The notes under the pieces: model-generated
Database searches by the model: none
Told to the model about the DNA's origin: nothing
The model's input: the letters and a program-made list of their open reading frames with translations, nothing else
Origin: a virus
DNA length: 37,540 bases
Strand: one strand, 5' to 3'
Virus record (IMG/VR): IMGVR_UViG_3300010299_002627
Coordinates: 1-37,540 of that record
Translations under genes and position numbers: made by a program
Part shown: piece after piece, positions 1-10,188 of the stretch
Position numbering within the stretch: the first letter of the stretch is position 1
Layout of the letters: every line of letters starts with the position of its first letter

Positions 1-1055
1 AAGATCTGCGAGCTCGCAGAGGCACGTTCAACACGCCATGGAACGCACCTAGCAATCCATTGTATGCCATGCCCGAATTGAAATTCATCAACGACACGCT
101 GTCAGATCTAATGGACGAGAGGGCCATGGAGTTGTACAACGAGGCCAAGAACTCCAACAAGAAACTGGCAGTGATGTGGAGTGGTGGAATTGATTCCACA
201 GCAGTGCTGACATCGTTATTGAAAAACATACCCAACAACGAACACGACATGATAGAGGTCATCATGACAACTTCCTCGATATATGAGAATGTTGAATATT
301 GGAAAAAATACATCAATGGAAAGATCAAACAATCTTTTTATCTTGATATAAGTTTGAACACACACTTTCTTGACAAATACATTTTACTACACGGCGACCC
401 GGGTGACTGCTTGTTTGGTCCCAGTATGCCCATGTATAAAGATTATTTTCTCAAAGGCCTGCACAAACAACCGCATAGCATATACAAAATAAAAATTAAA
501 AACTATTTGACAGACGATCTAGCAGTAGATTTCAATCAATGGTACTATGACAAAATAAGTCAAAGCATAGGCGAGATTGAACAGCAAGATTATGTATCAA
601 CTGTTGCAGATTTCTGGTGGTGGACCTATTTCAACTTCAAGTGGGAATTCAGTTGCCAACGTCCATTCTTTTATATGAGAGCTACCAGCGACAAAGACGG
701 AATGCTCTTGTACAAGAAACCAATATCATATGAGCATCAACAACGGTTTGCAAAAAATACTTTTTTCAACACAGACAAATTCCAGCAGTGGTCCTACACC
801 AATTTAAAAAGATTAATTCCTGACAATGACCAGTCACAACACAAAATAGATGTAAAAAGATATGTGTATGAGTTTGATCACAATGAAATTTATTTTGTTG
901 AAAAACCAAAGGTGGGAGTCAAGAATCCCACACAACACATAGATATCGATAGACCAGTTTATTATGACAACAACTGGATAGGTTATAGTGGAAACGAAGA
1001 CAACAGCACTGTTGATAAAAGTATGAGATATCTCATAGAAAGGTACGAGGGTTAG
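1..1055 (+). CDS. Asparagine-synthase-like PP-loop protein, copy 1 (5' partial)
   Basis: The reading frame is open from base 3, and the residues before the first possible start (DLRARRGTFNTP...) match the interior of copies 2 and 3. The gene therefore begins outside the window and the TTG at 60 is not its start. It carries the PP-loop ATP-pyrophosphatase motif SGGIDST and later GDPGDCLFGP, which corresponds to the AsnB motif GEGADELFGG. AsnB-type enzymes adenylate a carboxylate and replace AMP with ammonia. No glutaminase domain is visible here, so free ammonia, or another nucleophile, would be needed. A Trp-rich stretch (ADFWWWTYFNFKWEF) and a TDKFQQWSYTNLK stretch are shared with copies 2 and 3. 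Copy 2 starts 15 bp downstream. The substrate is unknown. Confidence 0.75.
   Translation, partial: DLRARRGTFNTPWNAPSNPLYAMPELKFINDTLSDLMDERAMELYNEAKNSNKKLAVMWSGGIDSTAVLTSLLKNIPNNEHDMIEVIMTTSSIYENVEYWKKYINGKIKQSFYLDISLNTHFLDKYILLHGDPGDCLFGPSMPMYKDYFLKGLHKQPHSIYKIKIKNYLTDDLAVDFNQWYYDKISQSIGEIEQQDYVSTVADFWWWTYFNFKWEFSCQRPFFYMRATSDKDGMLLYKKPISYEHQQRFAKNTFFNTDKFQQWSYTNLKRLIPDNDQSQHKIDVKRYVYEFDHNEIYFVEKPKVGVKNPTQHIDIDRPVYYDNNWIGYSGNEDNSTVDKSMRYLIERYEG
13..293 (+). repeat. PP-loop copy 1 segment homologous to 1246-1526
   Basis: Aligned at a constant offset of 1233 to copy 2 with no gap. Bases 13-96, 128-199 and 219-293 are identical to copy 2, with clustered differences only in 97-127 and 200-218. 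The identical blocks include synonymous sites and encode the PP-loop region. Confidence 0.9.
711..810 (+). repeat. Near-exact 100-bp match to 1968-2067
   Basis: Ninety-nine of 100 bases match copy 2 (A780 versus G2037). It encodes the segment from YKKPISYEHQQ to WSYTNLK. Flanking sequence on both sides is diverged. Confidence 0.85.
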
Positions 1056-1070
1056 CAACACATTAAAGAT

Positions 1071-2333
1071 ATGGAAAACTATCACAGCAAAAAATATCCA
1101 GTTGATCATGTGAAAAAAATTAGATCATCTCGAATGGTCGATAACGGAGAGGTCCAACAATATCTAAATCAAATAAAAAAAAACAAGTTTGCCGTTGCTT
1201 GGGTTCTTATTCCGAGGATATTGCTAGGAATTCATGACACTCGTCCTCGCAGAGGCACGTTCAACACGCCATGGAACGCACCTAGCAATCCATTGTATGC
1301 CATGCCCGAATTGAAATTCATCAACGACAAAATGAGTGACTTGCTGGACGAGAGAGCCACGGAGTTGTACAACGAGGCCAAGAACTCCAACAAGAAACTG
1401 GCAGTGATGTGGAGTGGTGGAATTGATTCCACTGCGGTATTGGTTTCGTTGTTGAAAAACATACCCAACAACGAACACGACATGATAGAGGTCATCATGA
1501 CAACTTCCTCGATATATGAGAATGTTAATTTTTATTTTAAACACATCAGTAACAAGTTAAAACAAAAAAATTACATAGATATAAATCTAGATGTTGATTT
1601 CTTAGATCAGTACATTCTATTACACGGAGATCCAGCCGACTGCTTGTTTGGTCCCAATATGCCGTCGAGCAATAATCAAACTGTTAAAAATTATGAGTCA
1701 TCGGGCATCCATTTAAAATTACACAGCATACATAAAATAAACATCAAACACCCTTTGCTGTCAACATATCAATTAGGTTTTGATTTCAATCAATGGTACT
1801 ATGACAAGATAAATCAAACAATACAACAGGCTGGACAATCTGATTATGTATCAACTGTTGCAGATTTCTGGTGGTGGCAATACTTCAACTTCAAGTGGGA
1901 ATTCAGTTGCCAACGTCCATTCTTTTATATGAGATCTTTACAGCAAGATAGCAAAAGAATACCCATGTACAAGAAACCAATATCATATGAGCATCAACAA
2001 CGGTTTGCAAAAAATACTTTTTTCAACACAGACAAGTTCCAGCAGTGGTCCTACACCAATTTAAAAAATTTGATACCCAAGGATGTATCACAACACAAAA
2101 TAGATTTAAAAAAATATGTGTACGAGTTCGATCACAATGAAATTTACTTCAGGACAAAAACAAAAGTAGGAACCAAAACTCCGGTAAATGTTTTGAGAGT
2201 TGGCAATGTGAATGGTGCCATCACGATAAATCCTTTTTATTATGACGACGAGTGGGTAGGACACGCCTGGAATGAAGACGATCATATGGTCGCTAAAACT
2301 TCCAGATTGCTTCTGGATCGCTACACAGGATAA
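1071..2333 (+). CDS. Asparagine-synthase-like PP-loop protein, copy 2
   Basis: This is a complete 420-residue copy starting at ATG 1071. The PP-loop SGGIDS lies at residues 115-120 and the AsnB-like motif GDPADCLFGP at 187-196. The first 60 residues are unlike those of copy 3, whereas the region after RGTFNTPWNA is shared. Like its neighbours it lacks an N-terminal glutaminase (Ntn) domain, so it resembles only the synthetase half of AsnB. Blocks identical in DNA to copy 1 (1246-1329, 1361-1432, 1452-1526) alternate with diverged stretches of the same length. Amidation or ligation of a carboxylate on a small molecule or sugar is the family expectation. The actual substrate cannot be read from sequence. 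No clear ribosome binding site precedes the ATG, so coupling to copy 1 is likely. Confidence 0.8.
   Translation: MENYHSKKYPVDHVKKIRSSRMVDNGEVQQYLNQIKKNKFAVAWVLIPRILLGIHDTRPRRGTFNTPWNAPSNPLYAMPELKFINDKMSDLLDERATELYNEAKNSNKKLAVMWSGGIDSTAVLVSLLKNIPNNEHDMIEVIMTTSSIYENVNFYFKHISNKLKQKNYIDINLDVDFLDQYILLHGDPADCLFGPNMPSSNNQTVKNYESSGIHLKLHSIHKINIKHPLLSTYQLGFDFNQWYYDKINQTIQQAGQSDYVSTVADFWWWQYFNFKWEFSCQRPFFYMRSLQQDSKRIPMYKKPISYEHQQRFAKNTFFNTDKFQQWSYTNLKNLIPKDVSQHKIDLKKYVYEFDHNEIYFRTKTKVGTKTPVNVLRVGNVNGAITINPFYYDDEWVGHAWNEDDHMVAKTSRLLLDRYTG
1246..1526 (+). repeat. PP-loop copy 2 segment homologous to 13-293
   Basis: Partner of the copy 1 segment. Blocks 1246-1329 (84 bp), 1361-1432 (72 bp) and 1452-1526 (75 bp) are exact matches. 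The block 1361-1432 is also identical to copy 3 at 3491-3562. Confidence 0.9.
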
Positions 2334-2344
2334 TAATTAACGTT

Positions 2345-3193
2345 ATGTCAAATGAGTTATATGGATTAATAGACCCGGCCGCTAATAAATTTGTCGTGGT
2401 GTCAACAAATTTTTCTGCTATTAAACAAGTACAATTTGTCATAATGCAAAAATACTTCTATCCGGTATTAAACATAACCCAAACAATAGATTACCAAAAA
2501 AAATATAACACTGAGTATAGAGATATAATATTAGATAACATAGACAATACCAATTGTGTAAAATATGGTGCCAACACGACCATGATTCAAAGTCTAGAGC
2601 AAACAGTGTCACTGCATAATGCCAAAGAATCCGGTATCATGATTTCACCAACTGACATAGATATTTCCTATAAATTGAAAGATGTATTAGAAATAATATT
2701 AGAAATTTTTGAAATTGTTCAAATACAGATAGATTCAATAAAAAAATTTAAAATAGATTCAACCAGAGATAAAGATAATGGAATAAAAGAATTTTTTAAT
2801 TTTTTAAAACTATTAGTGGACACACCAGATCATGGTGAGGAATTAAAAAAAATATTTGAACAAGAGCTAAATTTAAACGATCTTTCCGGTGCAGATTTGC
2901 ACGACTACCAAAAATGTGTTACAAGATTTTTAATCGACTCTTTTAATAAAATAGACATTTCAAACAACAACTGTGTTCTAGACTTTATCAACGACATGAT
3001 AGATAAAACATCAAAAATAAAAAACACAATGAGTCCGCGTTATCGATATTTTACATTAGAAGACGGATTTGACAATTTGAGTTCTTTTCAAAAAAATCCA
3101 AATCTATATAAAGATTTACTCAAAGATCAAAGCATGATAGAACATATAAGATTTTTTTTGAGCAAGAAATTAAATGAAATTACAGCTCGTTAA
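2345..3193 (+). CDS. Hypothetical protein between PP-loop copies 2 and 3
   Basis: I do not recognise this 282-residue protein. It is acidic, Ile/Asp/Asn/Lys-rich and mostly predicted helical in its second half, with repeated hydrophobic/charged alternation near residues 113-150 (LKDVLEIILEIFEIVQIQID). There is no signal peptide, membrane segment or cysteine cluster. It starts at ATG 2345, 11 bp after copy 2, and its last 20 bp overlap the start of copy 3. It therefore sits inside one transcription unit with the PP-loop genes and is probably translationally coupled to copy 3. A partner or accessory role for the PP-loop proteins is possible from context only. Base composition is markedly more AT-rich than the conserved blocks of the adjacent copies. 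Confidence 0.6.
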   Translation: MSNELYGLIDPAANKFVVVSTNFSAIKQVQFVIMQKYFYPVLNITQTIDYQKKYNTEYRDIILDNIDNTNCVKYGANTTMIQSLEQTVSLHNAKESGIMISPTDIDISYKLKDVLEIILEIFEIVQIQIDSIKKFKIDSTRDKDNGIKEFFNFLKLLVDTPDHGEELKKIFEQELNLNDLSGADLHDYQKCVTRFLIDSFNKIDISNNNCVLDFINDMIDKTSKIKNTMSPRYRYFTLEDGFDNLSSFQKNPNLYKDLLKDQSMIEHIRFFLSKKLNEITAR

Positions 3194-4439
3194 GTTCCGA
3201 AATTCTCCATTACCCAAATCTGTCAAAGACAAATTTGCAAAATCTAATACAGTATCAAATTGGTTAAGCATGGGACATGATCTTCCTTTGAGTAGGTCTG
3301 TGTATCCAGAAAATCCTTATGGTATGTACTGGAGTCAGATTTATAAATTAATGCAAGGTATTTCAGACTGGCGAGCCCGATCGGGTACTTTTAATAATCC
3401 ATGGAACGCACTCAGCAATCCACTGTATGCCATGCCCGAATTGAAATTCATCGATGATAAATTAGAGGACATTTATGATTCACGAGCCACGGAGTTGTAC
3501 AACGAGGCCAAGAACTCCAACAAGAAACTGGCAGTGATGTGGAGTGGTGGAATTGATTCCACGTCGGTATTGGTCTCGTTGTTGAAAAACATACCCAACA
3601 ACGAACACGACATGATAGAGGTCATTTGTAATACCGATTCTATTTTTGAACATCCAGAATTTTTTATGAAATTTATTTACAGAAAACTAGCAATTCGAAG
3701 TTCTGTTTTCTTTTTAGTCACAAACGAGTTCCTAGATCAGTACATTCTATTACACGGAGATCCAGCCGACTGCTTGTTTGGTCCCAGCATAAGCAGAATG
3801 AAAATGGCTATACGTCAAGGAGTTCACCACGAATCCTGGCAAAAAAATATGGATCTGATAAAAAAACCATTGATACAAATTCTAGAAAACAAAAACAATT
3901 TTTATACAACTCATTTGCCAGAAAACTATCTTTCTGACGAGCATATCCCGGAGTTTTCGAAAAACTGCGTTGATTGGTTTTGTGAAAAACTCTCAAATAA
4001 TATTATTGAAAACAAACACAATGATTATCTCACTAGTATAGCAGATTGGTATTGGTGGACATATTTCAATTTCAAATGGGAGTTCAGTTGCCAACGACCG
4101 TTTTTATACAATAACAGCGGAGAACATATATCTTTTGAAAAACAAAAATTTTTCTCTAAAAATACTTTTTTCAACACAGACAAGTTTCAGCAGTGGTCCT
4201 ATACTAATTTAAAGTCACTTATTCCAACAGCAGACATGACCAAACACAAATCTTTAGTTAAAAAATATATTTTCGACTATTCTAAGATGACCGAGTATTA
4301 CAAGTATAAAAATAAGATTGCTGGACAACAACCGGGATTAAAAATAACACAACCGGACCTCTTATTTGATCAATATTGGCAACCAAACCATGATGTTGAT
4401 AATTTTTATGATAAAATGCTGAGCGAGTACAAAGGATAG
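3174..4439 (+). CDS. Asparagine-synthase-like PP-loop protein, copy 3
   Basis: A complete 421-residue copy. The PP-loop SGGIDST is at residues 124-130 and is followed by GDPADCLFGP. The gene is colinear with copy 2 from 3491 to 3786 without net insertion or deletion. Bases 3491-3562 and 3582-3625 are identical in all three copies and 3733-3786 is identical to copy 2, while the 107 bases at 3626-3732 are strongly diverged. The middle (about residues 205-280) is unique to this copy and longer. The start at ATG 3174 lies inside the end of the preceding gene. The expected chemistry is ATP-dependent activation and amide formation as in the AsnB synthetase domain. The N-terminal 60 residues differ completely from copy 2, which may reflect different partners or substrates. 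Confidence 0.8.
   Translation: MKLQLVKFRNSPLPKSVKDKFAKSNTVSNWLSMGHDLPLSRSVYPENPYGMYWSQIYKLMQGISDWRARSGTFNNPWNALSNPLYAMPELKFIDDKLEDIYDSRATELYNEAKNSNKKLAVMWSGGIDSTSVLVSLLKNIPNNEHDMIEVICNTDSIFEHPEFFMKFIYRKLAIRSSVFFLVTNEFLDQYILLHGDPADCLFGPSISRMKMAIRQGVHHESWQKNMDLIKKPLIQILENKNNFYTTHLPENYLSDEHIPEFSKNCVDWFCEKLSNNIIENKHNDYLTSIADWYWWTYFNFKWEFSCQRPFLYNNSGEHISFEKQKFFSKNTFFNTDKFQQWSYTNLKSLIPTADMTKHKSLVKKYIFDYSKMTEYYKYKNKIAGQQPGLKITQPDLLFDQYWQPNHDVDNFYDKMLSEYKG
3491..3625 (+). repeat. PP-loop copy 3 conserved blocks
   Basis: Bases 3491-3562 (72 bp) and 3582-3625 (44 bp) are identical to copies 1 and 2, and the sequence diverges abruptly after 3625. Confidence 0.9.
3733..3786 (+). repeat. Exact 54-bp match to 1603-1656
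   Basis: Encodes DQYILLHGDPADCLFGP. It is identical to copy 2 at every base, whereas copy 1 differs at several synonymous and non-synonymous sites in the same region. Confidence 0.85.
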
Positions 4440-4553
4440 TTATATGTGTATATTATTTAAAACTAGCCAGAAAACACATATTATCATTGATTTAATTGGT
4501 AAATATCAGCAAGTCAAGAATGTAAACACAGCCTTGATTTAACGTTAAATAAA

Positions 4554-4567: not shown

Positions 4568-5038
4568 ATGACAAAAACAACTAAAATCAGATGGGTTATT
4601 GCACACGAGCCTTTATCTTTATTCGTAAGAGCGGCTAAAGATTTCCAAGATTTCGTGAACAGAGCTCAGACTGCAGAAAAAATCGAAGTTGAAATCATGA
4701 CATTAAGAGAGTACAGTGACAAATACAACAACGGTGTATTAGTTACTAAACACGACTTATTAGACTTGATGGAACAAGGTAAAATTGAAATGTCTCAAAT
4801 GTACACTACATGGTTAGCAGAGCATTATGAACAAGATATGTTAGCATTAGAAATGCCTTTCATATTTGCAGATCATGATCATGCAACTAGAGTGTTAGAA
4901 GGCGAAGTAGGTGAAGAATTATTAAACAAAATCACTGAAAAATCTAACGTTAGAGGTATGGCATTTACTTACTCAGGTGGTTTCAGAAACGTAGTTTCTA
5001 ACAAAAAAGTTAGCAAACTAGGTGACTTAACTGCGTAA
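4568..5038 (+). CDS. TRAP transporter solute-binding protein (DctP-like), N-terminal half
   Basis: 156 residues matching the first half of DctP-family periplasmic binding proteins. It runs from the first beta strand (IRWVIAHEP) through the region of PFIFADHDHATRVLEGEVG to RNVVSNKKVSKLGDLTA. In the family the next residues are normally GxKxR. Here they are two in-frame stops, TAATAA (5036-5041), followed at once by the ATG of the second half in the same frame. There is no signal peptide, although DctP proteins are normally exported. Leucine is almost always TTA here, while the second half uses a mixture of leucine codons, so the two halves may have different histories. The product would need the second half to bind ligand. 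The likely ligand class is organic acids, by family only. Confidence 0.75.
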   Translation: MTKTTKIRWVIAHEPLSLFVRAAKDFQDFVNRAQTAEKIEVEIMTLREYSDKYNNGVLVTKHDLLDLMEQGKIEMSQMYTTWLAEHYEQDMLALEMPFIFADHDHATRVLEGEVGEELLNKITEKSNVRGMAFTYSGGFRNVVSNKKVSKLGDLTA

Positions 5039-5041
5039 TAA

Positions 5042-5530
5042 ATGAAACTTAGAACTAACAGAAATCCGGTTGCTCAAGAAACCTTCAAAGCACTAGGTGT
5101 CACGGATAGACACGTTTGTGAAATAGAAGATCTAAAAGGTGCAATCGAAGAAGGAAAATGTGAAGGCGGAGAAGGAGTTTACTCTAGAGTTTACCCTTTG
5201 GACCAGAACGAAGTGACCAAATCGGTTATTGATACGAAACACAGTTTGTTCTTAACAACCATGATCATGCGTAATGATTTCTATGAGAAATTATCTCCAG
5301 AAGTCAGGGCTGTTTTAAAAGCGGCCGCAATTGATGCCGGAAGAAAAGAACGTGAAACAACGATCGCTGATGGAGAAGAAGCCAAGGCTAGATTGAAATC
5401 AGAGGGTGTTAACGTTCACGAGCTTACCCCGGAAGAAACAGCAGAGTTCAAGGAAAAGACTAAAACGGTGTACGAAAAGTTCGAACCAACATTTTCACCT
5501 GGATTACTTGATAGAATCAAGAAAGCCTAG
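5042..5530 (+). CDS. TRAP transporter solute-binding protein (DctP-like), C-terminal half
   Basis: 162 residues that begin MKLRTNRNPVAQETFKALGV, the DctP region that normally follows DLxG and includes the ligand-carboxylate-binding arginine (here R4). It then contains the region around LKGAIEEGKCEGGEG and ends with a charged helical tail. Together with the first half the length (318) equals a mature DctP. The ATG follows TAATAA directly, which suits termination-reinitiation. There is no independent ribosome binding site. It could be a two-chain binding protein, or a decaying gene in which the second half is read by reinitiation. No membrane subunits (DctQ/DctM) lie in the window, so any transport role would rely on host subunits. 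Confidence 0.75.
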   Translation: MKLRTNRNPVAQETFKALGVTDRHVCEIEDLKGAIEEGKCEGGEGVYSRVYPLDQNEVTKSVIDTKHSLFLTTMIMRNDFYEKLSPEVRAVLKAAAIDAGRKERETTIADGEEAKARLKSEGVNVHELTPEETAEFKEKTKTVYEKFEPTFSPGLLDRIKKA

Positions 5531-5555
5531 TTAGTTTTAAATCAACTTTTAAAAA

Positions 5556-5582
5556 GGGTCGCTTCGGCGGCCCTTTTTTTTT
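5556..5582. terminator. Rho-independent terminator, probably bidirectional
   Basis: The stem GGGTCGC/GCGGCCC (5556-5562 with 5567-5573, one G-U pair) has a TTCG loop and is followed by nine T. An A-run precedes it, so it also works for the convergent minus-strand gene ending at 5585. Confidence 0.9.
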
Positions 5583-5584
5583 GA

Positions 5585-6436
5585 CTAAATTTTTAATATT
5601 GTTCTTGCTTCAGAGACGGAAGCCACAGAGCCATTTGTTTTTTCTATCGAAGATACGCATTGTTCTACTAGCTCTGCATTTGATTTCGCGAGCACATTTT
5701 TTTCGAGGTAGATGTTATCTTCCATGCCAACCCTAACATGGCCACCTTTTTGATGAACATATTCTGCTATAGGCAAAGACATCTTGCCTACTCCCAGAGC
5801 ACACCAAATTGAGTCTTCCGGTAAAATTTTTAACGCATAATCAATTGTGTTGATGGAAGACTCCCATCCGTATTTGACTCCTGTCACTATTTGCCATATG
5901 GGTTGTCTGCTCGTAAGTCCGTCACTAATGAGTTTTTTTGCAATTCTGAGATCACCGCTGTCAAAAATTTCAAATTCCGGAAGTGTGCCATATGACTGTA
6001 TTTTCAAAAGCATCTCAGCAACGACAGGGATAGAGTTTATTCTAACACCGTCGTCATCTTGCATCATGGTGTTAAAGTCTAGACTACATATATCAGGACG
6101 TATACTATCTATGTGTTCCACTCTTGTTTGAGCATCCATTAATCCAGAATTATCATTTGTTAATGGCTTATACACAGCACCCGGGCCTGTGGTGAGATTA
6201 ATAATAAGATTTTCGTTCTTGTTTCTTATCAAGTCAACAGTTTTTTGGTAAAGATCTTTGTCCATAGACGGTTTACCGTTATCTGGATTTCGAACGTGTA
6301 TGTGTACTATGGAAGCACCCGCCGCCGCGGCATCCAACGAGGATTGTGCAATTTGTTCCGGTGTTATTGGCAAGTATGGTGTGGAGTTTGGATCAGTTTT
6401 ACCACCAGTTACAGCACAGGTTATAATTGTTTTCAT
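5585..6436 (-). CDS. Beta-keto acid cleavage enzyme (BKACE/DUF849 family)
   Basis: A 283-residue TIM-barrel protein of the BKACE family. These enzymes use acetyl-CoA and a zinc ion to cleave beta-keto acids such as 3-keto-5-aminohexanoate or dehydrocarnitine. Zinc ligands are visible as HIH (H45, H47) and E239 in RVGMEDNIY. The N-terminal KTIITCAVTGG and the LTTGPGA strand are typical, and the length is normal for the family, so the gene looks intact. It converges on the split TRAP gene and diverges from clpP. In bacteria these enzymes serve catabolism of carnitine, lysine or similar compounds. In a phage it would be an auxiliary metabolic gene. The exact substrate is not readable. Confidence 0.88.
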   Translation of the reverse strand: MKTIITCAVTGGKTDPNSTPYLPITPEQIAQSSLDAAAAGASIVHIHVRNPDNGKPSMDKDLYQKTVDLIRNKNENLIINLTTGPGAVYKPLTNDNSGLMDAQTRVEHIDSIRPDICSLDFNTMMQDDDGVRINSIPVVAEMLLKIQSYGTLPEFEIFDSGDLRIAKKLISDGLTSRQPIWQIVTGVKYGWESSINTIDYALKILPEDSIWCALGVGKMSLPIAEYVHQKGGHVRVGMEDNIYLEKNVLAKSNAELVEQCVSSIEKTNGSVASVSEARTILKI

Positions 6437-7503: not shown

Positions 7504-8086
7504 CAACAATTTTGGACCATCGAATAGTTTCAAAAATTTAAACTTCCCGTTTGATTATGATCTATCTAAACTTTATGAAGAAGCATCTAGTTTTGATTGG
7601 ATCGGGCCCGGAAAAACAAAGAGTTTAGAAAAAATTGATCGCATTCTATTATACAAATCTAAATCAGAAAGTAATATCATAGGTATTCCTATTGTACAGC
7701 AGAAGCATGACGAAAAAGAAGAGGTGTGTTTCAATACAGAATCATATCCTGAATGGAATAATTTTTTAAAAAACATAAAATTATTAGGCGGTGTTCTACT
7801 TATAACTATGAGTAAAATGAGTCCGGGTGGATTCATATATCCACACAAAGATTCAAATTTTGTTGCACACAAAATATATTTTCCGTTGAATTGGCCACGT
7901 GGTTGTTATTTTAAAATTTACAAAAACGGATTAGTAGACTTTTCTGATCTTAAACCAAAAATTATAAATTCTGGAGAGTATATACATTCGGTCATTAATG
8001 ACAGCAAAGAAGAAAGAATTATTGTCAGTATCTTTGTTGATTGGAATGTAGAACCATGGAAAAAGATATTTGAAGAAGAATTTTAA
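7445..8086 (+). CDS. Aspartyl/asparaginyl beta-hydroxylase-like Fe(II)/2-oxoglutarate oxygenase
   Basis: 213 residues with a jelly-roll oxygenase core near the C-terminus. The iron triad would be H134 and D136 (YPHKDS) with H181 (EYIHSV), and R191 (EERIIVSI) would bind 2-oxoglutarate. The segment FPLNWPRGCYFKIYKNG between them matches the usual spacing of Asp/Asn hydroxylase-type proteins. Predicted reaction: hydroxylation of a peptide side chain or small molecule. The stop overlaps that of the convergent gene at 8083 through a shared TTAA. Start 7445 is the longest ATG, and since it overlaps the preceding gene it is not certain. Confidence 0.65.
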   Translation: MTIHLSDKYPKIIRDLFRYDNNFGPSNSFKNLNFPFDYDLSKLYEEASSFDWIGPGKTKSLEKIDRILLYKSKSESNIIGIPIVQQKHDEKEEVCFNTESYPEWNNFLKNIKLLGGVLLITMSKMSPGGFIYPHKDSNFVAHKIYFPLNWPRGCYFKIYKNGLVDFSDLKPKIINSGEYIHSVINDSKEERIIVSIFVDWNVEPWKKIFEEEF

Positions 8087-8358
8087 TCTTTATGATGTTT
8101 AAAATCTAATTCTAATATCTTGATAATTTGTTTATTAATATTTTCTCGCATCACAGTTATTTCATCCTTCACAACCGAACGTTGTTCTCCGTGTGTGTAT
8201 TCCAGTTGTTGTAATAACTCCCACAAGTTTATTTGAAAAGTCATGAGCTCTTCTCGTGCCAGAAACTCCTCAAATTCTAATTCAAATTTTTTATGATCGG
8301 TATGTCCGATCGACATATATATAATAGCAGTTATAATAATAACAAAAAAATAACGCAT
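8083..8358 (-). CDS. Small membrane-anchored coiled-coil-like protein
   Basis: 91 residues from ATG 8358, chosen because it begins directly with the hydrophobic segment MRYFFVIIITAIIYMSIG. A longer frame upstream would overlap the divergent lipoprotein gene. The rest is charged and helical (KKFELEFEEFLAREEL, then EITVMRENINKQIIKILEL), which suggests a single N-terminal membrane anchor with a helical soluble domain. This layout is like an inner-membrane spanin (Rz type), and a lipoprotein gene lies head-to-head beside it, but spanin pairs are usually co-directional. The function is therefore open. Confidence 0.55.
   Translation of the reverse strand: MRYFFVIIITAIIYMSIGHTDHKKFELEFEEFLAREELMTFQINLWELLQQLEYTHGEQRSVVKDEITVMRENINKQIIKILELDFKHHKD
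8310..8337 (+). promoter_or_regulatory. Probable promoter for the 66-residue lipoprotein
   Basis: TCGACA (8310-8315), 16 bases, then TATAAT (8332-8337). It lies inside the divergent gene. A Shine-Dalgarno-like AGGAAAG (8359-8365) sits 7 bases before ATG 8373. Confidence 0.45.
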
Positions 8359-8372
8359 AGGAAAGTATTTAC

Positions 8373-8573
8373 ATGAAACATTTGATAATGATAGCAACCG
8401 CGGTAATGCTCGTGTCATGCACGGCTATACCGACTTCACCAAAAGTTTCTTTTGGTAAAAAATGTTTGGCGTCTACAGATAAGGTCACGTATTCATATGT
8501 ATGGATATATGACAAAAATTCTGGTTTGCCGGCCAACACCGAAGATTGTAAATTGATAGAAAAAAAGAAGTAA
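8373..8573 (+). CDS. Small lipoprotein
   Basis: 66 residues with a type II signal peptide: MKHLIMIATAVMLVSC, with the lipobox LVSC at Cys16, so the mature chain is about 50 residues. The mature part has two more cysteines (KKCLAS, EDCKLIE) that could form a disulfide. It has its own promoter-like sequence and ribosome binding site. Its length and lipobox would fit an outer-membrane spanin or a superinfection-exclusion lipoprotein, but no motif decides between these. Confidence 0.7.
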   Translation: MKHLIMIATAVMLVSCTAIPTSPKVSFGKKCLASTDKVTYSYVWIYDKNSGLPANTEDCKLIEKKK

Positions 8574-8578
8574 TACTA

Positions 8579-8827
8579 TTATTTTGATGAGCTTGTTGCT
8601 TTGTCAACCTCTTCAAAATCTTTGGTTATCTCGTCTTGTTCAACCTGTTGCTTGAATTTGTTACATTCAGCCGGGTTGAACATACAACCTAGGACCAATC
8701 CAATAGATCCGTCATATATGTTCGGCTCTTTGTTACTTGCTACGTCTTTGTTTTTAGACGCACAACTTGTCAAAAGAATGGCGAATAAAAATAATATCAA
8801 TATTTTTTGAATTTTTAAAAATTTCAT
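8579..8827 (-). CDS. Small lipoprotein
   Basis: 82 residues from ATG 8827. The upstream in-frame ATG at 8863 is rejected because it lies within the promoter. The signal MKFLKIQKILILFLFAILLTSC ends in the lipobox LTSC. The mature part is polar and has a CMFNPAEC segment whose two cysteines may pair, and a charged helical end. Transcribed from the promoter at 8840-8868, it faces the 66-residue lipoprotein gene with a 5-bp gap between stops. Cell-envelope location is confident; its role is not known. Confidence 0.7.
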   Translation of the reverse strand: MKFLKIQKILILFLFAILLTSCASKNKDVASNKEPNIYDGSIGLVLGCMFNPAECNKFKQQVEQDEITKDFEEVDKATSSSK

Positions 8828-8839
8828 AATTACGCCATA

Positions 8840-8868
8840 TTTATAATAGATTGATATCGACATGTCAA
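8840..8868 (-). promoter_or_regulatory. Promoter with sigma70 and T4-late features
   Basis: On the minus strand, TTGACA (8868-8863) and TATAAA (8845-8840) are 17 bases apart. The -10 region also reads TATAAATA (8845-8838), the T4 late promoter octamer. Transcription would begin about 6 bases before ATG 8827. Confidence 0.65.
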
Positions 8869-8877
8869 TACAATTTC

Positions 8878-8908
8878 AACCGGTGAACAAATCTGCTCAC
8901 CGGTTTTT
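8878..8908 (+). terminator. Hairpin with T-run
   Basis: A perfect 9-bp stem AACCGGTGA/TCACCGGTT (8878-8886 with 8897-8905) is followed by TTTTT on the plus strand. It also lies 3' of the minus-strand gene at 8925-9125 but has no good U-run in that direction. Confidence 0.6.
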
Positions 8909-8924
8909 ACCATACACAAATAAT

Positions 8925-9125
8925 TTAGAAGTTGGACGGATCTACTTTGATGTGTTTTAATATTTTGCCAGCATTTGATCCATGCTTGATCATGTAGCCA
9001 GTTGTTCCGTTTCCGTATGTGTCAACGGATTGAACTGCTCTTTTCATAGCGTTCTCTTTGTGCTCGATGTCTTTCTTTTTGTAATATGAGGACATCATAT
9101 AAGTGTGTCTATCTTTGGTGTACAT
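8925..9125 (-). CDS. Small basic protein with strong ribosome binding site
   Basis: 66 residues, basic and Tyr/Met-rich at the start (MYTKDRHTYMMSSYYKKKD), then a Gly-rich centre (TYGNGTTGYMIKHGSNAG). Not recognised. It is likely real because AAGGAGG lies 6 bases before the ATG, a T4-type late promoter octamer lies further upstream at 9206-9213, and the leader between them carries two direct repeats with hairpin potential. This arrangement predicts strong, controlled late expression. A small virion or DNA-binding protein is possible. Confidence 0.65.
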   Translation of the reverse strand: MYTKDRHTYMMSSYYKKKDIEHKENAMKRAVQSVDTYGNGTTGYMIKHGSNAGKILKHIKVDPSNF

Positions 9126-9131
9126 AAGTAA

Positions 9132-9138
9132 CCTCCTT
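9132..9138 (-). promoter_or_regulatory. Strong Shine-Dalgarno site
   Basis: Minus-strand AAGGAGG, 6 bases before ATG 9125. It is the most canonical ribosome binding site in the window. Confidence 0.85.
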
Positions 9139-9153
9139 TTTTCTTTAAGTTGG

Positions 9154-9198
9154 CCACTTTTAACTGATGTGGATCAGCCACTTTATGTCCATGTGGAT
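9154..9198 (-). repeat. Two 21-nt direct repeats in the leader of the 66-residue gene
   Basis: The unit CCACTTT-N6-ATGTGGAT occurs at 9154-9174 and 9178-9198 (period 24). In the minus-strand transcript, 9177-9164 and 9200-9189 form perfect 5-bp and 4-bp stems, both with the loop CCAC. CCAC and GTGG in each unit are also complementary to each other. Confidence 0.75.
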
Positions 9199-9205
9199 GG
9201 TTCAG

Positions 9206-9213
9206 TATTTATA
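9206..9213 (-). promoter_or_regulatory. T4-type late promoter
   Basis: An exact TATAAATA octamer on the minus strand, followed by C as often seen in T4 late promoters. It would give a leader of about 75 bases that contains the direct repeats and the ribosome binding site for the 66-residue gene. Confidence 0.65.
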
Positions 9214-9277
9214 TGCAAATAGCACATATCACCTATGTTTATATTACAACCCAAAACAAAAAAAGTCAAGTTGATCG

Positions 9278-9306
9278 TTGACCGAATTTGTTTGATAGTG
9301 TATAGT
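9278..9306 (+). promoter_or_regulatory. Sigma70 promoter for the iron permease
   Basis: TTGACC (9278-9283), a 17-base spacer and TATAGT (9301-9306), giving a leader of about 40 bases. The transcript would continue into the three tRNA genes. Confidence 0.65.
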
Positions 9307-9353
9307 GTGCTATAAGTAAATGCAAATAATAACTATTCGCAACTAATAAAATT

Positions 9354-9959
9354 ATGATTACCACTCTACTAGCAACCACGTTTGTAATAGCCAGAGAAGG
9401 ACTTGAAGCATGGCTGATAGCGGTGCTGGCCATCACAGCGGCCAACAACAATCCCAAACATATAAAAGTCATTATATGGGCAGTTTTAGGGTCTATTTTG
9501 GCCACTATTGCTTTGGGCACTACAACTGCCCAGTTATTAGGCAATCACGCAAATACAGAGCGATTTGAAGGGTTTATAGGGGTCATTACAGGTGTTGTAC
9601 TAGCCTGGGTAGCATGGTTCTGCCATAGTGCCAGCCAGCACGTTAAAGCCTTGCCTTTTGGAAACTCTTTGTTATTAGGACTTGCTGTTTTTGGTATAAT
9701 GTTTCGAGAAGGAGTCGAAGTGGTTATATTCCTTACAGGCATAATCATCGATAGTCAGGACATTCAAATGGTATATTTGGGTATTTTGGCTGGTTTGGTA
9801 ATATTGGTGACTGTATCAAAAATTATGTATAATCAAATAACAAAATTACCCATCAAAAATATTTTTAAAATTAGTCGTTGGATTTTTAGCATACTTGCTG
9901 TATACTTTCTATATACAGGTATTTCAGAAATAATTGAATACGGTATTTGGCCCCAATAG
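9354..9959 (+). CDS. FTR1/EfeU-family iron permease, C-terminally short
   Basis: A 201-residue membrane protein with about six hydrophobic segments and both signature motifs of the family: REGLE at residues 14-18 and REGVE at 118-122, whose glutamates carry iron through the membrane. Family members such as EfeU are about 275 residues with seven segments, so this one is short at the C-terminus. The last codons (WPQ-stop) lie in the 5' end of the tRNA-Thr gene: the TAG at 9957-9959 is tRNA bases 8-10. No EfeO/EfeB partners are present. A role in raising host iron uptake during infection is plausible but inferred. Confidence 0.88.
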   Translation: MITTLLATTFVIAREGLEAWLIAVLAITAANNNPKHIKVIIWAVLGSILATIALGTTTAQLLGNHANTERFEGFIGVITGVVLAWVAWFCHSASQHVKALPFGNSLLLGLAVFGIMFREGVEVVIFLTGIIIDSQDIQMVYLGILAGLVILVTVSKIMYNQITKLPIKNIFKISRWIFSILAVYFLYTGISEIIEYGIWPQ

Positions 9960-10025
9960 CTCAGTTGGTAGAGCAACTGATTTGTAATCAGTAGGTCGTC
10001 TGTTCGAATCGGACTTGGGGCACCA
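9950..10025 (+). tRNA. tRNA-Thr (UGU)
   Basis: A complete cloverleaf: acceptor GCCCCAA/TTGGGGC, D-arm GCTC...GAGC, anticodon loop TTTGTAA (anticodon TGT) and T-loop TTCGAAT, with encoded CCA at 10023-10025. The first ten bases overlap the end of the iron permease gene. Confidence 0.95.
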
Positions 10026-10034
10026 CATCGATGT

Positions 10035-10110
10035 GGGGGTATAGCTCAGTTGGGAGAGCACTTGATTTGCATTCAAGGGGTCGTGGGTTCGAATCCCTCT
10101 ACCTCCACCA
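10035..10110 (+). tRNA. tRNA-Ala (UGC)
   Basis: Acceptor GGGGGTA/TACCTCC with one G-U pair, anticodon loop TTTGCAT (TGC), T-loop TTCGAAT and encoded CCA. The T-stem GTGGG/CCCTC has one T-T mismatch. Confidence 0.93.
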
Positions 10111-10113
10111 AAC

Positions 10114-10188
10114 GGTCCCTTCGTCTATCGGTTAGGACACGTGGTTTTCATCCTCGAAAGAGGGGTTCGATTCCCCTAGGGACCGCCA
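10114..10188 (+). tRNA. tRNA-Glu (UUC)
   Basis: Acceptor GGTCCCT/AGGGACC, anticodon loop TTTTCAT (TTC), T-arm GGGGTTCGATTCCCC, discriminator G and encoded CCA. The anticodon stem CGTGG/CCTCG has a T-T mismatch at its middle pair. Confidence 0.93.

Follow-up and report, generated by a model that had tools for sequence, protein, structure and literature searches.

Gene conversion between ancient paralogues as the probable source of shared catalytic blocks in a phage array of PP-loop genes

How do neighbouring genes come to share stretches of identical DNA while encoding strongly divergent protein in between? The question is raised by IMG/VR virus record IMGVR_UViG_3300010299_002627, whose 37,540 bases are hereafter called the window, and which carries three PP-loop genes resembling asparagine synthetase (AsnS-like; c1, c2 and c3). 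A preliminary description had proposed that gene conversion or recombination homogenises the catalytic blocks of these genes, and this proposal is supported by an unconverted relative, a lineage-specific tract in c2 and the near absence of the pattern elsewhere. The description had also placed the three genes in tandem. All three are present, but an additional open reading frame (ORF), here called the partner ORF, lies between c2 and c3, so that the genes are not strictly adjacent. More copies had been envisaged upstream of c1; in the close relative L003, however, c1 is complete and preceded by a different gene, and the 40-kb L003 record holds three copies.

The five repeat blocks originally described were all recovered as exact repeats at their coordinates. 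Their sizes had been put at 44 to 100 bases; exact blocks do exist, but the longest in the window is 84 nucleotides (nt). Further blocks were found at 588-623, 630-680, 709-778 and 780-810 (each shared with c2) and at 3582-3625 (shared with both other copies), while no exact direct repeat of at least 30 nt occurs elsewhere in the 37.5 kb window. At the protein level, the blocks correspond to the best-conserved motifs and the copies are strongly divergent in between. The borders between identical and diverged segments are sharp, and synonymous change, near zero inside the blocks, is close to saturation outside them for c2-c3 and c1-c3. The blocks had also been described as richer in GC than their surroundings. 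This holds on average, with exact matches of at least 25 nt having 41.7% GC overall and 56.8% at third codon positions (GC3) versus 34.8% and 35.3% in the remainder of the three genes, but not for each block (219-293, 37.3%; 709-778, 31.4%).

Table 1 Positions of the array genes, identity blocks, recent tract and exchange island (window coordinates unless another locus is named; aa, amino acids).
Feature	Position	Strand	Remarks
c1, AsnS-like PP-loop gene	3..1055	+	5' end truncated by the window edge
c1 orthologue in L003	6762-7985 (L003)		complete, 407 aa
c2, AsnS-like PP-loop gene	1071..2333	+	420 aa; structure model pLDDT 90.9
Partner ORF	2345..3193	+	282 aa; its end overlaps the start of c3
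c3, AsnS-like PP-loop gene	3174..4439	+	421 aa; L007 orthologue at 8044-9309
Block B1	13..96	+	= 1246-1329 (c2), exact, 84 nt
Block B1, subsegment	61-89		29 nt, also = 3424-3452 (c3)
Block B2, PP-loop motif	128..199	+	= 1361-1432 (c2) = 3491-3562 (c3), exact, 72 nt
Block B3	219..293	+	= 1452-1526 (c2), exact, 75 nt; first 44 nt = 3582-3625 (c3)
Block B4, HGDP.DCLFGP motif	1603..1656	+	= 3733-3786 (c3), exact, 54 nt; c1 diverged there
Recent conversion tract in c2	1977..2021	+	45 nt, inside the 70-nt identical run 1966-2035 = 709-778
Exchange island	1..4495	.	~50-80% identity to L007; flanks mostly 94-100%

Comparisons drew on the best 80 of 143 relatives (73 loci), with L005, L006 and L030 set aside as repeat contigs of L002, L003 and L004. 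L002 and L003 carry the same three genes, and their DNA is 96-99% identical to that of the window where the two were compared; L007 is more distant and possesses orthologues of c1 and c3 but lacks c2. Over the 42 codons of B2 and B3 together, window c2 and c3 show 1.0 synonymous difference over 24.7 sites, and c1 and c3 of L003 show 0 over 24.2. The two copies of L007, conversely, differ from one another by 25.2 over 25.8 (Fisher 2.7e-12), and window c3 differs from its own L007 orthologue by 26.0 over 25.0. In both B2 and B3 window c3 carries c1/c2 DNA, and immediately after B3 its peptide is that of the L007 orthologue (CNTDSIFEH). Since the L007 copies are saturated at synonymous sites in these blocks, DNA identity is not dictated by the encoded peptides. 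This bears on the possibility that a constraint at the DNA or RNA level (selection on codons, or a site used in regulation or recombination) preserved the blocks, as might be suspected from their coincidence with the most conserved protein motifs and their GC-richness on average. The L007 orthologues encode similar peptides and are nevertheless saturated, not only between themselves but also, at 15.5 over 25.5, towards window c2. Moreover, the matching copies vary by block: in B4, c2 and c3 differ by 1.0 over 12.3 synonymous sites but c1 and c2 by 10.0 over 12.2. B4 is thus alike in c2 and c3 but not in c1, so that different blocks involve different copies. Coupled with the absence of the pattern from most pairs in other phages (below), these observations leave constraint scarcely credible as an explanation.

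The segments between the blocks tell of a much older history. Outside the blocks, window c2 and c3 show 110.2 synonymous differences over 130.3 sites. The positional copies form old separate clades in the family tree, in which window c1 and c3 have positional orthologues in L007, and outside the blocks the orthology tree was preferred by 168-190 log units (delta logL). In columns matched between c1 and c2, the proportion of synonymous differences (pS) was 0.06; towards the L007 orthologue it reached 0.61 in those columns, which had been selected for c1-c2 identity. Outside the matched columns the proportion of nonsynonymous differences (pN) between c1 and c2 (0.325) exceeded that between c1 and L007 (0.255), and the c1/c2 duplication therefore looks older than the split from L007. 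Were the genes instead products of a recent duplication, with diversifying selection then acting rapidly on the variable segments, the blocks would be the unchanged remainder; in other arrays, too, variable segments exceed the blocks in divergence. That account meets near-saturated synonymous sites between c2 and c3 outside the blocks, as well as positional orthologues in L007 and a strong preference for orthology there, and we give it hardly any credence.

The same pattern was sought in other multi-copy phages by a silent-run test. Identical proteins were counted once in this test and in the family tree, both of which covered copies of at least 300 aa (thereby leaving aside the first copy of L017) outside the distant groups L059-L077. 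In the window lineage 9 of 9 pairs gave p values up to 0.041. Among 24 pairs from other arrays, nominal p fell below 0.05 in two (L013, 0.0135; L018, 0.041) and was above 0.05 in 22, neither set of pairs being independent given that the contigs are related. The longest identical run in those 24 pairs was 26 nt, versus 72-84 nt in the window lineage. Synonymous divergence is not uniform along the genes, and related phages lack the pattern; the preliminary description had named the opposite of either as an outcome that would refute its proposal.

Mean paralogue identity, compared segment by segment between the lineage (9 pairs) and the other arrays (24 pairs), separates two kinds of region. It was 86 versus 38% in B1, 96 versus 50% in B2 and B3, 93 versus 57% in B4, 86 versus 58% in B5 and 100 versus 50% in B6. 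The corresponding values were 26 versus 23% in the N-terminus, 36 versus 37% in segment 143-176, 33 versus 29% in 196-262 and 31 versus 29% in the C-terminus; the remaining segments gave 56 versus 49% (86-95), 44 versus 19% (286-313) and 57 versus 34% (333-350). Homogenisation raised the blocks but did not affect the N-terminus, segments 143-176 and 196-262 or the C-terminus, which are no less diverged than in phages that lack conversion.

A recent event could be distinguished within c2 of the window. Within positions 1977-2021, window c2 departs from L003 c2 at 15 sites and from L002 c2 at 16, and at every one of them it matches window c1; one allele (codon column 346, second base) is unique to window c1 and c2. 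A 3SEQ-like test of the tract gave a permutation p of 5e-5, which is its lower limit. Short-read assembly might have collapsed similar paralogues into blocks of spurious identity, especially as the window contig and L002 both end within the repeat region and the start of L002 c1 equals its c2. However, the same identity is found inside the L003 contig, where c1 is whole and internal, and between c2 and c3 of L002, and the metagenome ids differ. Furthermore, at the left border of the c2 tract no more than 11 nt are common to c1 and c2 ahead of the switch, less than usual assembly k-mers, and GC3 in the blocks differs from that in the rest of c3. An assembly artefact is consequently very improbable. 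A second candidate tract, in L002 c1 (codon columns 101-109), was rejected: it lies at the contig start, equals L002 c2 there and is probably an assembly effect. From the unconverted L007 control together with the lineage-specific c2 tract, we conclude that gene conversion between ancient paralogues has very probably taken place, in a single phage lineage.

The direction of transfer is suggested by base composition. In B2 and B3, GC3 is 65-73% in the window and L003 copies and 25-53% in the L007 homologues of these blocks, while the window's other genes (at least 120 aa) range from 19 to 36%. Because GC3 in B2/B3 is high while c3 outside the blocks has 29%, the sequences point to a movement of c1/c2-type sequence into c3 in the PP-loop block. 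The high GC3 may reflect GC-biased conversion or a GC-richer source. Upstream of the array, the DNA of L003 and L007 (1-5000 each) has 51-54% GC, compared with 29-46% in the rest of the loci.

Several observations weigh against conversion as stated here. In the silent-run test, p was of modest size (0.005-0.025 for six pairs), and approximately unbiased (AU) tests of single blocks, which are short and gave low power, did not reject the orthology tree (p-AU 0.103 for B2 and B3 together, 0.083 for B4, 0.149 for B1 and 0.342 for B6). One recent conversion event, and only one, is well shown. The less conserved segments 286-313, partly covered by the recent c2 tract, and 333-350 were also raised, such that homogenisation is not strictly confined to catalytic motifs. 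Finally, a misaligned exchange between co-infecting phages would be indistinguishable from conversion within one genome.

Exchange between genomes is also suggested by a comparison of the whole locus with L007. The upstream ORF, c1, c2, the partner ORF and c3 together form a block that is strongly different between the window lineage and L007, with nearly identical flanks. In 30-nt steps, the left border falls outside the window at about L003 position 5980, where the upstream ORF starts and identity drops from 90-100% to 37-77%; at the right border, ~55 nt past the c3 stop, identity returns to 87-100%. In 250-nt steps the upstream flank is for the most part 94-100% identical but weaker at 1751-2500 (86, 78 and 58%), and between 4501 and 5000 there is no matching DNA in L007. 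Synonymous differences to L007 amount to 0.70-0.85 in c1, c2, c3 and the partner ORF, to 0.184 and 0.066 in the two ORFs adjoining c3, which encode a DctP protein, and to 0.025-0.052 in a hydroxylase ORF and two neighbours that we take to be BKACE and ClpP. From saturated synonymous change between near-identical flanks we infer that the block was swapped by recombination in the flanks, as opposed to fast evolution in place. A second exchange patch was observed at window 5042-6436, where synonymous differences to L003 are 0.24-0.27, the five compared ORFs beyond it having 0.00-0.04.

A strongly variable block between conserved flanks might alternatively betray a diversity-generating system, by retroelement or inversion, that varies the segments between the blocks. 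The c1-c2 mismatches fall into all six classes (AG 63, CT 59, AC 43, AT 42, CG 19, GT 17) without adenine bias, and divergence at synonymous sites equals that of the proteins. We therefore regard such a system as highly improbable, although no search for a template repeat or reverse transcriptase was made.

What might the array encode? The PP-loop motif residues W114, S115, G116, G117, D119 and S120 are invariant in 75 of 75 family members. A first AF2 model of c2 from four sequences was poor (pLDDT 47.8) and was superseded by one built from 75 sequences (pLDDT 90.9, pTM 0.92). The top structural neighbour of the latter (VIA) was TsnB9, with Z 12.1 over 283 residues, followed by human asparagine synthetase, beta-lactam synthetase, E. 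coli AsnB and carbapenam synthetase at Z 9.8-10.5 (10.5 for both asparagine synthetase and beta-lactam synthetase). All of the eleven best rows (Z 9.6-12.1; 182-283 residues, 9-12% identity) are asparagine, beta-lactam or carbapenam synthetases or TsnB9, with GMP and NAD synthetases ranking below them at Z of 8.3 or less. Foldseek alone was weak on this model (best E 0.0038), and of six phage proteins in BFVD with E below 0.001, three are named asparagine synthase.

At the level of primary sequence, resemblance to this class is slight. All three copies missed the curated PF00733 cut-off of 21 bits (13.6, 11.3 and 11 bits), and PF00733 gave no match in the window at E 0.001. The default alignment to AsnB, inspected for the SGEGSDE motif and the catalytic lysine, joins the PP-loop region only, other motifs being matched in a forced alignment alone; this alignment, of low confidence, places HGDPADCLFGP opposite AsnB SGEGSDEVFGGY and TDKFQQWSY opposite QKEQFSDGVGYSW. 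At E 0.01, the profile phrog_1550, which represents phage PP-loop enzymes of the QueC / PAPS reductase type, picks up 52 of the 75 family members, with 7.8e-6 as the best E; its match in the window copies spans 28 residues at the PP-loop. It counts against the structural reading that sequence profiles of known families match mainly near the PP-loop and below cut-off. The N-terminal glutaminase domain is absent, as c2 has 113 residues before the PP-loop and none of the alignments in the eleven best rows begins before target residue 151. Hence the window proteins share the WSGG.DS PP-loop and the fold with the PF00733 class but differ from asparagine synthetases in both respects, cut-off and glutaminase domain, and for these reasons we do not file them as such. 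On the model, they are predicted to activate a carboxylate with ATP, probably, and to form an amide; an ATP-using, AMP-forming amide ligase is the chemistry that we consider likely.

The partner ORF stands directly before 63 of the 82 core ligase genes with enough upstream sequence, most commonly with a 4-nt overlap (27 of 63). Five of 87 core ligase genes were omitted for too little upstream DNA, and the 82 include repeated contigs (L021, L022 and L024 like L019; L027 like L026). Conversely, a ligase gene comes next after 63 of 65 hits of the partner-family profile; as loci had been selected by their ligase genes, the figure describes position and not independent co-occurrence. Ligase genes without the partner include L003 c1, c2 of all three close relatives and the c1 orthologue of L007. 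In other arrays the unit of partner and ligase is repeated up to three times. An apparent fusion of the two in L062 (598 aa) was dropped, as the partner profile does not list L062.

The family occurs in many viral contigs, with at least two copies in 20 of 54 core loci (L002-L058, three repeated contigs removed), although several of the 20 are near-identical contigs and many of the 54 are fragments. Searches of annotated phages with three core ligase members as queries gave no match, and a distant member retrieved Pseudomonas phage Cygsa01 only. This phage (L078 4688-6837) has two genes annotated as MnmA, at least one of them a distant match to the family (30%), ~4.5 kb after a baseplate gene; the MnmA annotation may be wrong. 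L161, a contig of a Polynucleobacter metagenome-assembled genome, carries 268 nt of c2 at its end (4965-5267, 99% match) but looks chimeric, and was not used as host evidence; at most it gives a hint of habitat.

For the neighbouring genes, the domains identified by profile searches are limited to DctP, Asp_Arg_Hydrox, cupin and PP-binding; the names ClpP, BKACE, FTR1, DNA polymerase and 2OG-like are presumed from reading the sequences. The DctP TRAP solute-binding protein is split in the window into ORFs 4568-5038 (N part, 156 aa) and 5042-5530 (C part, 162 aa). L003 and L007 show the same split, and in L034 there are two ORFs resembling the C part together with one 349-aa relative. Three consecutive tRNA genes (Thr, Ala, Glu) lie at window 9950-10188. 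In L011, L013, L019, L020 and L037, a small ORF (84-89 aa) follows the ligase cassette, and after it comes a large one, presumably a DNA polymerase, with one further ORF between the two in L011 and L020. Among distant bacterial and phage members of the family, L162, L166, L172, L068 and L059 have a cupin-domain gene nearby, and L177 has a carrier-protein domain gene too.

Taken as a whole, the following account is the best explanation, and we hold it with considerable confidence. The array would consist of ancient paralogous ligase genes of the asparagine-synthetase fold, comprising the synthetase domain only, with one partner ORF. As the sequence comparisons show, short-tract conversion in this phage lineage has copied conserved catalytic motifs (PP-loop, HGDP.DCLFGP, FFNTDKFQQWS and flanking motifs) among the copies, c3 acquiring c1/c2-type sequence in the PP-loop block. 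Conversion may depend on sufficient similarity for the DNA to pair, and tracts entering the variable segments may be lost by selection or may never form. The copies would be amide ligases with different substrates, the retained differences being the substrate-facing parts. Distinct specificities are plausible because the positional copies belong to separate clades of old origin and are still diverged in most of their variable segments, and the repeated partner and ligase units, together with those clades, fit with different roles; that the copies do have different substrates we judge to be evenly balanced.

Conversion is a process known from other genomes. For E. coli rRNA operons, concerted evolution is reported to proceed by gene conversion between paralogues (PMC8022953). 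The array resembles those operons in the patchy overwriting of copies and in that, within tracts, paralogues are closer than orthologues. It differs in that ancient protein-coding paralogues of a phage are affected, that the tracts centre on catalytic motifs and that most variable segments are untouched. Judged by their titles, none of the papers found describes conversion in arrays of phage ligase genes. Type I restriction specificity genes (HsdS), and others like them, place conserved recombination blocks around variable recognition segments. As in HsdS, alike blocks here alternate with variable segments, and blocks are exchanged between genomes; unlike HsdS, there is no evidence here of variable segments being shuffled among copies, and the protein class is unrelated. 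That the array is a phage specificity locus, with the homogenised blocks serving as recombination handles for swapping variable segments or whole blocks between copies and phages, seems doubtful. Were it true, the locus would give each phage different modification or ligation specificities against its host.

The array offers a case, controlled by orthologues, of concerted evolution by gene conversion within a phage gene array and centred on catalytic motifs. Such identity blocks among phage paralogues can mislead both gene trees and short-read assembly. The ligase family concerned has no assigned function and occurs in many IMG/VR contigs. Being at the same time an exchange island with sharp borders, the locus provides a testable link between recombination and specificity.

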